Part shown: positions 2,551 to 31,039 of the stretch, piece after piece
How the letters are laid out: each line of letters starts with the position of its first letter
Position numbering within the stretch: position 1 is the stretch's first letter
Source of the DNA: Candidatus Desulfofervidaceae bacterium
Lineage (GTDB): Bacteria; Desulfobacterota; Desulfofervidia; Desulfofervidales; Desulfofervidaceae
NCBI GenBank assembly: GCA_027038965.1
Contig: JALWFG010000007.1
Location: forward strand, 1 to 35,389
Length of the DNA stretch: 35,389 nucleotides
Direction of reading: 5' to 3'
Translations under genes and position numbers: made by a program
Notes under the pieces: generated by a model
Told to the model about the DNA's origin: nothing
The model's input: only the letters and a program-made list of their open reading frames with translations
Database searches by the model: none

Positions 2551-3657
2551 TTAAAGGTTCGGAGAGAAAAGGGTATTAAAATCCAATCCCAAATCTTCGG
2601 CAGCTATCCGTAGCTTTTGAAGGGATCTTTTCTCTATCTGCCTGATTCTTTCACGAGTAACGCCAAATTTTTCTCCGATTTCCTGCAGGGTATGTTCTGT
2701 TTCCCCTCCAATACCAAAACGCAAACGCAGGATCTCCTGTTCCCTAGGGGTAAGGGTGGACAGCATCGTTTGGAGCTTGCGTGAAAGTTCTGTATGAAGA
2801 ACAGAATCAAAGGGAGAAATGGCCTTTGGGTCTTTAATAAAGTCCTTTAGGGTGCTGTCTTCATCGCCAATAGGAGATTCCAACGACACTGGTTCTTGCA
2901 CCGCTGACAAAACAGCCCTGACTTTTTTCAGCGGTAACCCCGTTTCCTCTGCCATTTGTTCAATAGTGGGCTCTCTTCCATATTTGTTAAGTGAATTATA
3001 AAAGGACTTGAGGACCTTAGTCTTTAATTCCACAAAGTGAACAGGTAACCGAATTGTTTTGGATTTATCCGAAATGGCCCTTACGATAGATTGTTTGATC
3101 CACCAAGTAGCATAGGTGCTAAAACGATATCCCTCTTTGTAATCAAACCGAAAGATGGCCTTTATTAGCCCGATATTGCCCTCTTGAATCAGGTCAGCCA
3201 AACTTAAGCCATGGCCTACATACCGTTTGGCAATGCTTATTACCAAACGCAAATTTGCCTTAATCATTTCATTACAAGCATCCCTTACTATCTGGTCTAA
3301 TCTTTCAAGACGCTGTTTTAACTGAATCAACTTGGGTTCATGATATTTTTCCGCAAGTTGGTATATTGTCTTTGTCACGGTTTTAAGATACCATTCCTTA
3401 GGCAAAGTATCCTTTTGTTGCCACTGCCTTATTCGGGCCTTAAGGGCTATCAATTCAGGACAGGAGACACTTGCCTGAAGGACAAGAAATATAATTGCAT
3501 TGTATCCTTTACGAATCCGAATGGCAATTCGCTGTTCCTCTTTTTTGGTAAAAAGCTTGCAGGTACCTACTTCTTGTAAGTAAACAGTTATGGCCTCTGG
3601 AGAATCAAAACAGCTCGCTTGGGAAGTCTCTTTTGTTTCTTTTTTATCAGAACGCAT
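2551..3657 (-). CDS. RNA polymerase sigma-70 family factor, RpoS/group-2-like
   Basis: This 368-aa sigma factor has all conserved regions. Region 1.2 is at about 17-50 (SPEAITVYLQEVG), and a short non-conserved linker runs from 55 to 120. Region 2 spans about 125-200, with NLRLVISIAKRYVGHGLSLA, the DLIQEGN core-binding motif and YATWWIKQS of region 2.3-2.4. Region 3 is at about 205-285, and region 4 at 295-355 carries the HTH (TLQEIGEKFGVTRERIRQIE). It lacks the large N-terminal region 1.1 and the long insert of a typical proteobacterial RpoD, so I favour an alternative, RpoS-like sigma; a reduced primary sigma is possible. A good sigma-70-type promoter lies about 100 bp upstream (3757-3784). 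It sits downstream of nifV and the EamA gene on the same strand. Confidence 0.88.
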   Translation of the reverse strand: MRSDKKETKETSQASCFDSPEAITVYLQEVGTCKLFTKKEEQRIAIRIRKGYNAIIFLVLQASVSCPELIALKARIRQWQQKDTLPKEWYLKTVTKTIYQLAEKYHEPKLIQLKQRLERLDQIVRDACNEMIKANLRLVISIAKRYVGHGLSLADLIQEGNIGLIKAIFRFDYKEGYRFSTYATWWIKQSIVRAISDKSKTIRLPVHFVELKTKVLKSFYNSLNKYGREPTIEQMAEETGLPLKKVRAVLSAVQEPVSLESPIGDEDSTLKDFIKDPKAISPFDSVLHTELSRKLQTMLSTLTPREQEILRLRFGIGGETEHTLQEIGEKFGVTRERIRQIEKRSLQKLRIAAEDLGLDFNTLFSPNL

Positions 3658-4810: not shown

Positions 4811-5917
4811 TTAAGCCGCCTTTTGTACAATTTGCAAGAGCTCCTCATCCGTCAAACAGCGGTTCAAAGAAGAAGAAGTAATTTTTACCCTTTTTAAAAT
4901 TTCCTCCAAATGTATGGTGTTTAAGTCTATGCCCAAGCTGGCCAATTTGGCCGCCAATGCCTTTTCTCCAGCCTTTTTCCCGATAAGAAACTTGCGTTTT
5001 AACCCAAGCTCTTCAGGTCTTAGGGGTTCATAAGTTTGAGAATATTTAAGGATTCCATCAATATGAATTCCCGATTCACAGGTAAAGATTTCTTCTCCAA
5101 CAATAGGTTTTTTAGGAGAAATGGGCACACGGGCGGCATCGGCCACATAATGGCAGAGAGGGCGGAGAGGAGAAAGCCGATAACATTCTTTCCCCATGCG
5201 TTTGACCAAAAAGGCCACAACTTCTTCTAGGGCCGTATTGCCTGCCCGTTCACCCAAACCACAAACCGTAACATCTACAAAATCGGCCCCTGCCTGAAGG
5301 GCAGAAATGGCATTGGCTGTGGCCATACCAAAGTCATTGTGAGTATGTACTCCAATGTCCAGACTACAACAAACCTTCAATTCTTTTACGATATGATACA
5401 TCTCCAGAGGACTCAAGATGCCCAAGGTATCGGCAAATCGGATGCGGTTGGCCCCTGCCCTCTGAGCTACAGCACACACCTGCTTTACAAACTCCAACTC
5501 AGCCCGTGAGGCATCTTCTAACCCCAGGGAAATATATAAGTTGTGTCTGCCCCGAATATAACGAACACTCCTAGAGACTGTCTCTAATACCCATTGCCGG
5601 CTCTTTTTTAACTTGTGTTCAATGTGAATATCTGACACCGGTACAGATATGGCAATTACATCTGGGCCAAGGGCAAGCGTTTCATCAATGTCCGCTGGCA
5701 GACATCGGCACCAAAGAGAAAGTCGGGCTGAAGTGTGTTTCTTCGCTTGATAAAAAAGCTCCTTTATCTCTGGATTTTTAACAGCCACACCCAATTCTAT
5801 TTCCTCTATGCCAATTTGGGTTAAAAGGTCAATAATGTGAAGCTTTTGTTCGGGTTCAAAATAAACATAAGCTGCTTGTTCCCCTTCTCTTAAGGTAGTA
5901 TCTACTAGTCCTTTCAT
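4811..5917 (-). CDS. nifV: Homocitrate synthase (NifV type)
   Basis: This 368-aa HMGL/DRE-TIM metallolyase condenses acetyl-CoA with 2-oxoglutarate. In nitrogen fixers the homocitrate becomes the organic ligand of FeMo-cofactor. The opening motif DTTLREGEQ is at residues 6-14, FADTLGILSP at 161-170, the metal-binding HTHND at 191-195, GLGERAGN at 220-227, and a NifV-like ESGIHIDGILK block at about 290. It lacks the C-terminal leucine-sensing domain of full-length isopropylmalate synthase, which supports homocitrate synthase; a methanogen-type or AksA-like homologue is the main alternative. The modBC genes nearby and the sigma-54 promoter immediately upstream both fit nitrogenase. The ATG at 5917 follows a strong GGAGGGGG ribosome-binding site. 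Confidence 0.85.
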   Translation of the reverse strand: MKGLVDTTLREGEQAAYVYFEPEQKLHIIDLLTQIGIEEIELGVAVKNPEIKELFYQAKKHTSARLSLWCRCLPADIDETLALGPDVIAISVPVSDIHIEHKLKKSRQWVLETVSRSVRYIRGRHNLYISLGLEDASRAELEFVKQVCAVAQRAGANRIRFADTLGILSPLEMYHIVKELKVCCSLDIGVHTHNDFGMATANAISALQAGADFVDVTVCGLGERAGNTALEEVVAFLVKRMGKECYRLSPLRPLCHYVADAARVPISPKKPIVGEEIFTCESGIHIDGILKYSQTYEPLRPEELGLKRKFLIGKKAGEKALAAKLASLGIDLNTIHLEEILKRVKITSSSLNRCLTDEELLQIVQKAA

Positions 5918-5945
5918 AACGCCCCCTCCTTTGTGTTAGTTGAGG

Positions 5946-5961
5946 AGCAATTTATGTGCCA
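5946..5961 (-). promoter_or_regulatory. Sigma-54 (-24/-12) promoter of nifV
   Basis: On the minus strand the sequence reads TGGCAC-ATAAA-TTGCT, with the -24 element at 5961-5956 and the -12 element at 5950-5946. This is a perfect fit to the sigma-54 (RpoN) consensus, with the exact 5-bp spacing between boxes. The start site would fall near 5935, just before the nifV ribosome-binding site. Sigma-54 control is the norm for nif genes, with a NifA-type activator. No activator gene is visible in the window. Confidence 0.8.
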
Positions 5962-6020
5962 AATCTCAATTACATAAACGCTTTATAAATTGAGGATTTT
6001 AAAATAATCCCCTTAAAGAT

Positions 6021-6055
6021 TTTTAACAAAAATGTTAAAACTTACATAAATGTAA
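6021..6055. promoter_or_regulatory. Two adjacent inverted repeats upstream of the sigma-54 promoter, possible activator sites
   Basis: Two perfect palindromes lie side by side. One is TTTTAACA (6021-6028), a four-base spacer, then TGTTAAAA (6033-6040). The other is TTACAT (6042-6047), AA, then ATGTAA (6050-6055). They sit roughly 90-120 bp upstream of the predicted nifV start site, the usual distance for a sigma-54 enhancer. They do not match the strict NifA pattern TGT-N10-ACA. They could also serve the divergent mreD-like gene. Binding is inference only. Confidence 0.4.
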
Positions 6056-6083
6056 AGAAAATTTATTATACAAGTGAAGGATT

Positions 6084-6683
6084 TTGGGCCTTAAAAATAG
6101 AAACCTTAAGGGACTTGCAAGGACAAGTGGGTGTGATAAAAAAGGCTTAGGGAGTTTCCTTAAATCAGATTCGGCAAAGGGGGAATTGATCTTTAAGAAA
6201 GCTTTAATAAGGAATTTTTTTATTTTGTGGCTTTGGCCCGGAATATGTTTTTTTATTTCCCTTTCTCTTTATCCAGGCAAAATTAGTACTCTATCTTCCA
6301 TCTTTTTTAATGTAAGTCTTTTTTGGTTAATCTCCTTTTTTGAAAAGGGTGGCTTCTGGACCATATTTTTTTGGGGCACGATGTTAGATATTTACAAAAG
6401 TAATTGCTTTGGAGTTTATCTAAGCGGAATATTGTGTCTTTACATTATAGTCCAATCTGTAAGCTCCAAATTAATTTGGCAAAATTATTTAAATCAAATC
6501 CTTTATATCTTGTTTGCATTTTTGTTTCTTTGTTTTTGGCGCTATGTGCTGTCTGTGGTCTTTGACCTTCAGGAGGATCTTTGTCAGTTCAACCAATGTC
6601 TTCTAATGGCCTTTGTGGGAGGTATTTTCTCCCCAATAATTTATAAATTTTATTGTTTTTTCCAGAGGAAAGATGCCTCTTAA
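6084..6683 (+). CDS. mreD: Rod shape-determining protein MreD-like
   Basis: This is a membrane protein of up to 199 aa with about five or six hydrophobic helices between residues 45 and 195, diverged but consistent with MreD. The diagnostic part is the GxMLDI/YKS-like stretch (WGTMLDIYKSNCFGVYLSG, about 98-116), a conserved MreD feature. Position is the stronger evidence: it is followed, with an 11-bp overlap, by PBP2 and then RodA, the elongasome order. mreB and mreC are not present. The start is uncertain. TTG at 6084 has GAAGGA upstream but adds about 35 hydrophilic residues unlike the family, whereas a later TTG at 6189 would begin close to the first helix. Confidence 0.65.
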   Translation: MGLKNRNLKGLARTSGCDKKGLGSFLKSDSAKGELIFKKALIRNFFILWLWPGICFFISLSLYPGKISTLSSIFFNVSLFWLISFFEKGGFWTIFFWGTMLDIYKSNCFGVYLSGILCLYIIVQSVSSKLIWQNYLNQILYILFAFLFLCFWRYVLSVVFDLQEDLCQFNQCLLMAFVGGIFSPIIYKFYCFFQRKDAS

Positions 6684-29610: not shown

Positions 29611-31039
29611 CTACCTACGACTAAAGTCGCAGGCTTCTGAGAGAGTTTGATCCCGCCAGGGCGGGACCCTTATCCCCCGTGGCAGGTTCACACCGCCACC
29701 TACTCCTATCCCTGCATACAGCAGAGACTTGGAGATACCTTTGCTGAAGTTGTAGATTCTTACCCTGACTGCTTTCTTTAGCCCTGTTACAAGGTCAAAC
29801 CATCCCTTCTCGAACTTCCTTAAGATGTTCCTGGCACCGTTTGTGTCTGCATTGATGAATCCTTTGACTGATGAGAGGAACAATCCTCTTTTTATTCTTC
29901 TTCCCAGACCCTTGTTCTGCTTTGAAACAGTTGTGGTTCTATCACAACTGTCAGTCCGGGAAGTATAGCTCTCATCTATCAGCTTAACTCCTATTCCCTT
30001 CTCTTTTAGCTTATAGGTTAAACACTCCGTCACCTTCCCGTGCGGTAATAGCTTAAACATCTGGTTTACAAGGTCTGGAAGGTTGTTTGCTTTGTTCTTT
30101 GACTCTTGAACTTTTCCTATCACTACCGTTCTCACTCCGTTTCTTACTGCAAGCTCCTTTATCAAATTGCTGACCTTGTGGGCGTAGTCCCTTAATAGAT
30201 TCTTGATGCCCTTCCAGAGCCTATGAAGTTTCCTCTCTATCTGAACTGTCGGCAATCCCTTGTTTTTGAGGTTGTCAAGCCTGCTCTGAAGTCCAGCTAT
30301 CCTTTTGAACTTTTTCCTGAGCAGTGTCTTTAACCCCCTCCCATCTATGATATAAGAAACAGGATTGCCTTCTATTACACAGGCCGTAAAGTTCGTTATC
30401 CCATAGTCTATTGCTAAGACCTTGTTACCTTTAGGCTTAATTTTTGCGACTTCTTTTTCATACACTACCACCAGCTTAAAGCTTACCTGTCCACCTGCCT
30501 TACAGGGAACTATCTGAACATTAAGAACCGGAAGATTTTCTAATCCTTTATATCCTGTTTCTATCCACAGGTAAGCAGGAGAAAATCCGAATTTTTCAAG
30601 CAAGTGTTCTTTTAAGCCTTTTGAAAGAGACAACCTGTTCTTTTTATCCTCTATCTTAAAGCCTGTTTTATCCCAGGTTACTACCCTGTGGGGCATTTCA
30701 GGATTTACATAGCCCAGCAGTCTAACAATGTTTATTCCCTTTTTCTTAAACTTTTCAGGCTGTTTTAAAAAACCGAAAAAGTTTCTCCAGCCTCTTGATA
30801 GTTCATCAAGAACTATTTGAGCACTCCTTGAAGTGTAGGGAACGCAGGTGGAGTGAAGTGTCTTTGAGTTTGTTATACAGGTCTCTGTAATCAGGCTTTG
30901 CTAACCTGTTCTTTATGAGGTAGTTCGCTTGATTCCGGAGTCTCCCAGCGTGATAGGTTAGATGCCCAAGTATTATCTGCTGTTCTTCTGTCAAACGGTT
31001 AAGTTCAAAAACTATCGCTCGTTTTACTTTCCTTGACAT
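29611..31039 (-). pseudogene. tnpB: TnpB (IS200/IS605-type RuvC nuclease), disrupted by one frameshift
   Basis: TnpB is the RNA-guided nuclease ancestor of Cas12. The first 70 codons (from the ATG at 31039, MSRKVKRAIVFELNRLTEEQ) end early. A 1-nt insertion near 30829-30836 moves the rest into another frame, which continues SRSAQIVLDELSRGWRNFFG, then LLGYVNPEMPHRV and on to the end. The full span is 1,429 nt, exactly one base more than 476 codons. The three RuvC acids are kept: D in LAIDYG, E in LIDESYTS and D in NADTNGARN. The zinc-finger cysteines usual between the last two are not intact. Product without correction: a short N-terminal peptide and perhaps a 361-aa C-terminal protein starting at 30696. 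Confidence 0.85.
29614..29666 (-). ncRNA. Probable right-end/omegaRNA region at the tnpB 3' end
   Basis: Two hairpins lie at the end of tnpB: TCCCGCC-AG-GGCGGGA (29651-29666), inside the coding frame, and the right-end stem CCTaCGACT/AGTCGcAGG (29614-29633). In active IS200/IS605 elements the guide (omega) RNA comes from exactly this overlap of tnpB 3' end and transposon end, with the guide read from flanking DNA. Expression in this decayed copy is unproven. Confidence 0.4.

Follow-up and report, generated by a model that had tools for sequence, protein, structure and literature searches.

Which promoter drives nifV in a Candidatus Desulfofervidaceae bacterium, and which activator acts on it through what kind of site, is the question raised by the stretch of DNA analysed here (35,389 nucleotides, in the following the window). 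On its minus strand, at 4811-5917, NCBIfam and Pfam matches reveal a nifV-like homocitrate synthase gene of 368 aa. The top NCBIfam match of the product is TIGR02660 nifV with 392.8 bits, which lies under the cut-off of 462.9; its Pfam domains are HMGL-like and HCS_D2, and its relatives are mod- and nif-linked. Read on the minus strand, the control region of the gene is ...GATTTGGCACATAAATTGCTCCTCAACTAACACAAAGGAGGGGGCGTTATG. An earlier interpretation of the letters, the sequence-only reading, had placed an RpoN consensus box and a very short leader here; the box is confirmed, and a short leader is predicted here as well. The box TGGCAC-ATAAA-TTGCT is found at 5946-5961 of the minus strand, with TGG(CA) at -24, TTGC at -12 and standard GG/GC spacing; it is the sole exact match to TGGCAC-N5-TTGCT within the window. 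From the -12 spacing a transcript start near 5935 is predicted, giving a leader of ~17 nt (5918-5935, minus strand) in which the ribosome-binding site AAAGGAGG can be read, a strong one whose GGAGG stands 7 nt ahead of the start codon of nifV (ATG, 5917). Across the 2.19 Mb genome there are 12 copies of the exact 16-mer box as compared to 1 of the reversed pattern, and 39 of the relaxed TGGCAYN5TTGC as compared to 4 in the reversed-pattern control. Moreover, the genome encodes rpoN (PF04552, E 7.1e-64), ~20 sigma-54 activator domains, nifH, nifB and three nitrogenase-component-1 genes; rpoN and nif structural genes were what the sequence-only reading had called for. Judged from its sequence and these counts, region 5918-6055 carries a genuine sigma-54 promoter in front of nifV.

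Further upstream, two palindromes are centred ~95 and ~113 bp from the predicted start. Both are candidate enhancer-binding sites on account of their sequence and recurrence: a proximal one, TTTTAACA-AAAA-TGTTAAAA, at 6021-6040 and a distal one, TTACATAAATGTAA, at 6042-6055. The sequence-only reading had reported two distinct motifs; both palindromes are indeed present, but they represent a single dyad, ACA-N4-TGT, repeated at a distance of 18 bp. It was right that neither fits the classical NifA site, TGT-N10-ACA (PMC7294313).

Palindromes in such an AT-rich region might have arisen by chance, leaving a real sigma-54 promoter with palindromes that are irrelevant to it or that belong to a repressor or to the housekeeping control of mreD. 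The window contains 22 palindromes with 8-bp arms and spacers 0-8, shuffled sequences giving 2-11, and an 8-bp-arm palindrome by itself is not remarkable. On the divergent side, mreD (6186-6683, plus strand; Pfam MreD 24.2 bits) is the first gene of an mreD-mrdA-rodA operon. The distal palindrome overlaps a weak sigma-70-like mreD promoter (6041-6069, plus strand), including its -35-like hexamer CTTACA at 6041-6046, which is followed by TATTAT at 6064-6069; ~1 match of this kind is expected by chance in the stretch. That the distal dyad interferes with the mre operon is conceivable but not supported, and an unsystematic look at other dyad sites met no mre or rod gene. What is remarkable is the recurrence of the dyad at nitrogen promoters and at a regulator gene, where 0.08 to 0.6 occurrences are expected by chance. 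This makes an origin by chance, or a role confined to mreD, very improbable.

The recurrence is seen in several counts. The strict form WWWACAN4TGTWWW is found at 34 places in the genome as compared to 17 for the reversed control, and lies 20-150 bp upstream of 6 of the 39 sigma-54 sites (0.08 expected). Poisson expectations of this kind are optimistic for AT-rich intergenic DNA, since they assume uniform placement. ACA-N4-TGT itself has 12 instances in 7 of 34 sigma-54 promoters (0.6 expected). An unbiased count covered the 832 possible three-base dyads (spacers 0-12) in front of these 34 promoters, against a background of flanking sequence that includes coding DNA; ACA-N4-TGT was the most over-represented of them, A/T homopolymers aside. 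The combined pattern AACANTTTTGT-N50..110-TGGCAN6TTGC retrieves from the genome exactly nifV, nifH, urtA and ureA, and nothing in the reversed control. Two strict dyads, at C11:803 and C16:227594, were not counted as part of the regulon: they belong to one and the same 16-mer, TTTACATTTTTGTTAA, found in the genome (G000) at C11:803-818 and C16:227594-227609 (L071, L070) next to what are probably CRISPR arrays with cas-like genes, and it is likely a duplicated leader sequence. The amtB-glnB region of the genome was also left out; its dyad lies over the ribosome-binding site between glnB and amtB, with no matching sigma-54 box.

Seven dyad-bearing sigma-54 promoters result. Six of them precede nifV, nifH, glnA, urtA, ureA and a DUF389 gene, the seventh an unrelated gene, so that the recurrence in front of other nitrogen genes which the sequence-only reading had proposed to look for is indeed found. 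Twin dyads stand upstream of the DUF389 gene and of glnA, there together with the sigma-54 box TGGCATTTTTTTTGCA, while the unrelated promoter (C3:50896) has one divergent copy. The genes urtA and urtB are firm NCBIfam matches, and ureABC were identified from sequence. No dyad is present at further exact sigma-54 sites, among them those of pilin, flagellar and lpxC-like genes. The proposal that nifV is nitrogen-regulated by an activator with an unusual site is thereby supported, with a change of scope: the targets point to general nitrogen limitation and not to a nif-specific control. The nifH operon comprises, in this order, a small ORF (73 aa), nifH, nifI1, nifI2, cynS, nifB, the three nitrogenase-component-1 genes and modA. 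Its cyanase gene cynS (L018:12804-13253) has nifI2 on one side and nifB on the other; cyanate is a nitrogen source, and from its position inside the operon cynS would share nif control. At a further locus (L063, C18:163091-163564; L067:2518-2630), the gene of a 483-aa protein, similar to enhancer-binding proteins (EBPs) but without the GAFTGA motif, adjoins the sigma-54 promoter with twin ACA-N4-TGT that precedes the DUF389/TIGR00341 gene. Its recognition helix, SSRMLSYKLHKYEID, resembles that of the candidate regulator on contig C4 described below, and the protein might compete for ACA-N4-TGT sites.

Where twin dyads abut, TGT-N10-ACA could be the true site of a classical NifA regulation, ACA-N4-TGT being incidental. 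Sites of this form are present at glnA (TGTAAAATATTTTACA) and at nifH (TGTCCTTATTTTAACA), where a single TGT-N10-ACA accompanies the only strict dyad within 200 bp. However, none was found in the 200 bp upstream of nifV, urtA and ureA, and TGT-N10-ACA also precedes unrelated sigma-54 genes, e.g. the lpxC-like gene at C5:22742; we rejected it as the operator. Furthermore, the spacer inside the dyad is constant at 4, whereas the distance between twin copies varies (here 15, 18, 19, 20 and 30 bp, and 21 bp in G003, a genome of another genus in the same family). The dyad, and not TGT-N10-ACA, is thus the unit, and classical regulation appears extremely improbable.

Which protein would read the dyad? 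On contig C4, at 38362-39876, lies a gene with a strict dyad just upstream. It encodes a protein with the GAF-AAA+-Fis-type HTH architecture of classical NifA, and the match to TIGR01817 (NifA) reaches 542.2 bits, over the cut-off of 528.85. In this protein and in its G003 ortholog the GAFTGA loop is the variant GAFSGA. The recognition helix, TTLRILSYKI, differs from the TxRQxxY common to the nif-linked NifAs examined; the C4-type clade shares a helix around LRI[LI]xYK. In a tree of the AAA+HTH parts, the C4 orthologs form a clade of 31 rows whose node, unlike the deeper ones, is resolved, with 100/100 support; nif-linked NifAs from Desulfobacterota, Rahnella and Rhizobium fall outside it. Matches to the C4 protein over nearly its full length exist in 253 of 395 Desulfobacterota genomes at E <= 1e-110.

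The surroundings of the orthologs point in the same direction. The 81% identical ortholog in G003 and glnA are divergently oriented, with twin dyads and a sigma-54 promoter in the intergenic region. Among the 30 orthologs closest in the phylum, a set that takes in the C4 protein itself, a flanked dyad lies within 250 bp upstream of 7 (0.175 expected), and a strict upstream dyad is missing in the other 23. The seven span five families, and six of them carry the dyad between -24 and -36 relative to the start codon, a position expected for autoregulation. In two genomes of one family C4 orthologs are near amtB, in front of which lie a dyad and a near-sigma-54 box, and in Eth-SRB1 the ortholog is located between amtB and modABC-nifV. 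G001, of the same genus, has a dyad before glnA; no clear sigma-54 box was found at this gene, and no C4 ortholog among three candidates scored. On this comparative evidence the C4 GAF-AAA-HTH protein is the likely activator of ACA-N4-TGT sites.

A second NifA-like activator deserves consideration for this role. The EBP L059 (609 aa) is encoded on contig C11 between the urtA and ureA sites, flanked by two target operons with dyad sites on both sides; it has the GAFTGA motif, and its best NCBIfam match is NifA with 393 bits, below cut-off. L059 would then bind ACA-N4-TGT and drive the regulon, the C4 protein serving some other purpose. However, the recognition helix of L059, TRRQLEYRI, belongs to the classical NifA type associated with TGT-N10-ACA. 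The best match to L059 in G003 is the C4-type ortholog, with 43% identity; L059 therefore seems absent from this genome, where the glnA dyads are still there. We therefore regard L059 as an unlikely, yet not negligible, candidate.

Taken together, a genuine sigma-54 promoter and a palindrome almost confined to nitrogen genes and their likely regulator suggest that one NifA-like activator probably runs the nitrogen-starvation programme. With fairly good confidence we propose that nifV is under sigma-54 control through tandem dyads bound by the C4 NifA-like activator, which would also drive the remaining nitrogen regulon. From the boxes and their recurrence, the co-location of the regulator gene, its clade and the altered nifV operon, all of them seen in the sequences, we infer the following course of events. 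The signal to this one-component protein would be a shortage of fixed nitrogen, as the nature of the targets implies. Its dimers would bind each ACA-N4-TGT dyad, and the bound protein would assemble an AAA+ ring; looping would bring it to the sigma-54 holoenzyme positioned at 5946-5961, where it would open the nifV promoter. Along with nifV, the protein would switch on the nifH operon, glnA, the urea importer and urease, and it may regulate its own gene via the dyad in the leader. As a whole, this is probably a nitrogen regulon that depends on enhancers and whose operator is non-classical and read by a distinct clade of NifA-like proteins.

How does this proposed system relate to known ones? 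NtrC is the general nitrogen regulator of enteric bacteria, and the general nitrogen-limitation role suggested here, including glnA, resembles it. In contrast to NtrC, the C4 protein has a GAF instead of a receiver domain, and the dyad differs from the NtrC consensus. With classical NifA it has in common the sigma-54 promoter, an upstream site and a GAF-AAA-HTH protein over the TIGR01817 cut-off, whereas the site, the recognition helix and the clade are different and the predicted regulon is wider. Among known operators, the one of AnfA comes closest; at Rhodobacter capsulatus anfH it consists of TAC-N6-GTA in twin 17-bp direct repeats (PMC7294313). A comparison of the sites reveals the same dyad geometry, xAC-N6-GTx containing xACA-N4-TGTx, and in both cases two copies lie upstream of a sigma-54 promoter for an activator of the NifA family with GAF-AAA-HTH architecture, the binding being predicted in our case. 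The TAC-N6-GTA form occurs at glnA, at the distal nifV site and at the proximal DUF389 site, with AAC and CAC variants elsewhere. Unlike the AnfA site, the dyad described here has A/T flanks and an inner A...T and accepts AAC-N6-GTT, and it serves nifV, nifH, glnA and urea genes, whereas AnfA serves the Fe-nitrogenase. The nearest known regulon, by its description, is the predicted one of DVU1949 in Desulfovibrio vulgaris, a one-component EBP proposed to be autoregulated, with nine operons of nitrogen metabolism and transport (PMC4641369). The likeness, a one-component nitrogen EBP with proposed autoregulation in a sulfate reducer, refers to the regulon description only, and the nitrogenase operon of D. 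vulgaris differs in being assigned to another EBP, DVUA0143 (PMC4641369). In a literature search for Geobacter GnfM, none of the papers listed named it.

The genomic neighbourhood suggests how nifV may have come under a promoter of its own. The nearest nifV genes found (58-62% identity) belong to MAGs of the SeepSRB2/Eth-SRB1 kind and to other Deltaproteobacteria; nifV was not found in the one genome of the same genus and the three of the same family that were searched. In several relatives (L087, L088, L092, L098) modA-modB-modC-nifV, encoding a molybdate transporter and homocitrate synthase, lie on one strand, with nifV joined on the 3' side. In the genome studied here modB and modC (134-2073) are on the plus strand and nifV is inverted relative to them on the minus strand, with three genes between. 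No sigma-54 box was found before the nifV of the relatives, in several of them because of the modABC-nifV layout. Nor was the dyad found upstream of their nifV, and there is no phylogenetic footprint at nifV itself for this reason. By comparison of the sequences, the separate sigma-54 promoter of nifV is associated with the changed layout. The modA gene is located at the end of contig C8 (L018 18583-19317), and modB opens the contig of the window, whose first stretch (1-2073) holds modB and modC. As modA-modB-modC are contiguous in relatives, C8 and the window are probably adjacent, which would place nifV a few kb past the nif operon.

A wider evolutionary reading seems to us about evenly balanced between right and wrong. 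According to it, a Desulfobacterota-wide clade of NifA-like proteins acts as a general nitrogen-limitation regulator of ACA-N4-TGT, first tied to glnA and amtB and here annexing nitrogenase, urease and urea uptake; nifV would have gained its sigma-54 enhancer-promoter after leaving the mod-nifV operon. Since the one member of the clade that was tested passes the NifA model, annotation of the clade as nif-specific is likely; this would be misleading if the clade in fact consists of general nitrogen regulators that have an operator of their own. In that case ACA-N4-TGT would allow nitrogen regulons to be predicted directly in sulfate reducers that are uncultured, and in relatives of these. As for nifV, its altered layout would be a case of a gene that moved out of an operon and under its own enhancer-dependent promoter.

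Two further features of the window were seen. Between modC and nifV, at 2551-3657, a sigma-70-family factor of 368 aa with regions 1.2 to 4 is encoded. The minus-strand ORF at 29611-30696 resembles, by eye, an IS605/TnpB-type transposase protein, and the part of the contig around it carries mobile-looking genes and nucleotidyltransferase/HEPN-like pairs.
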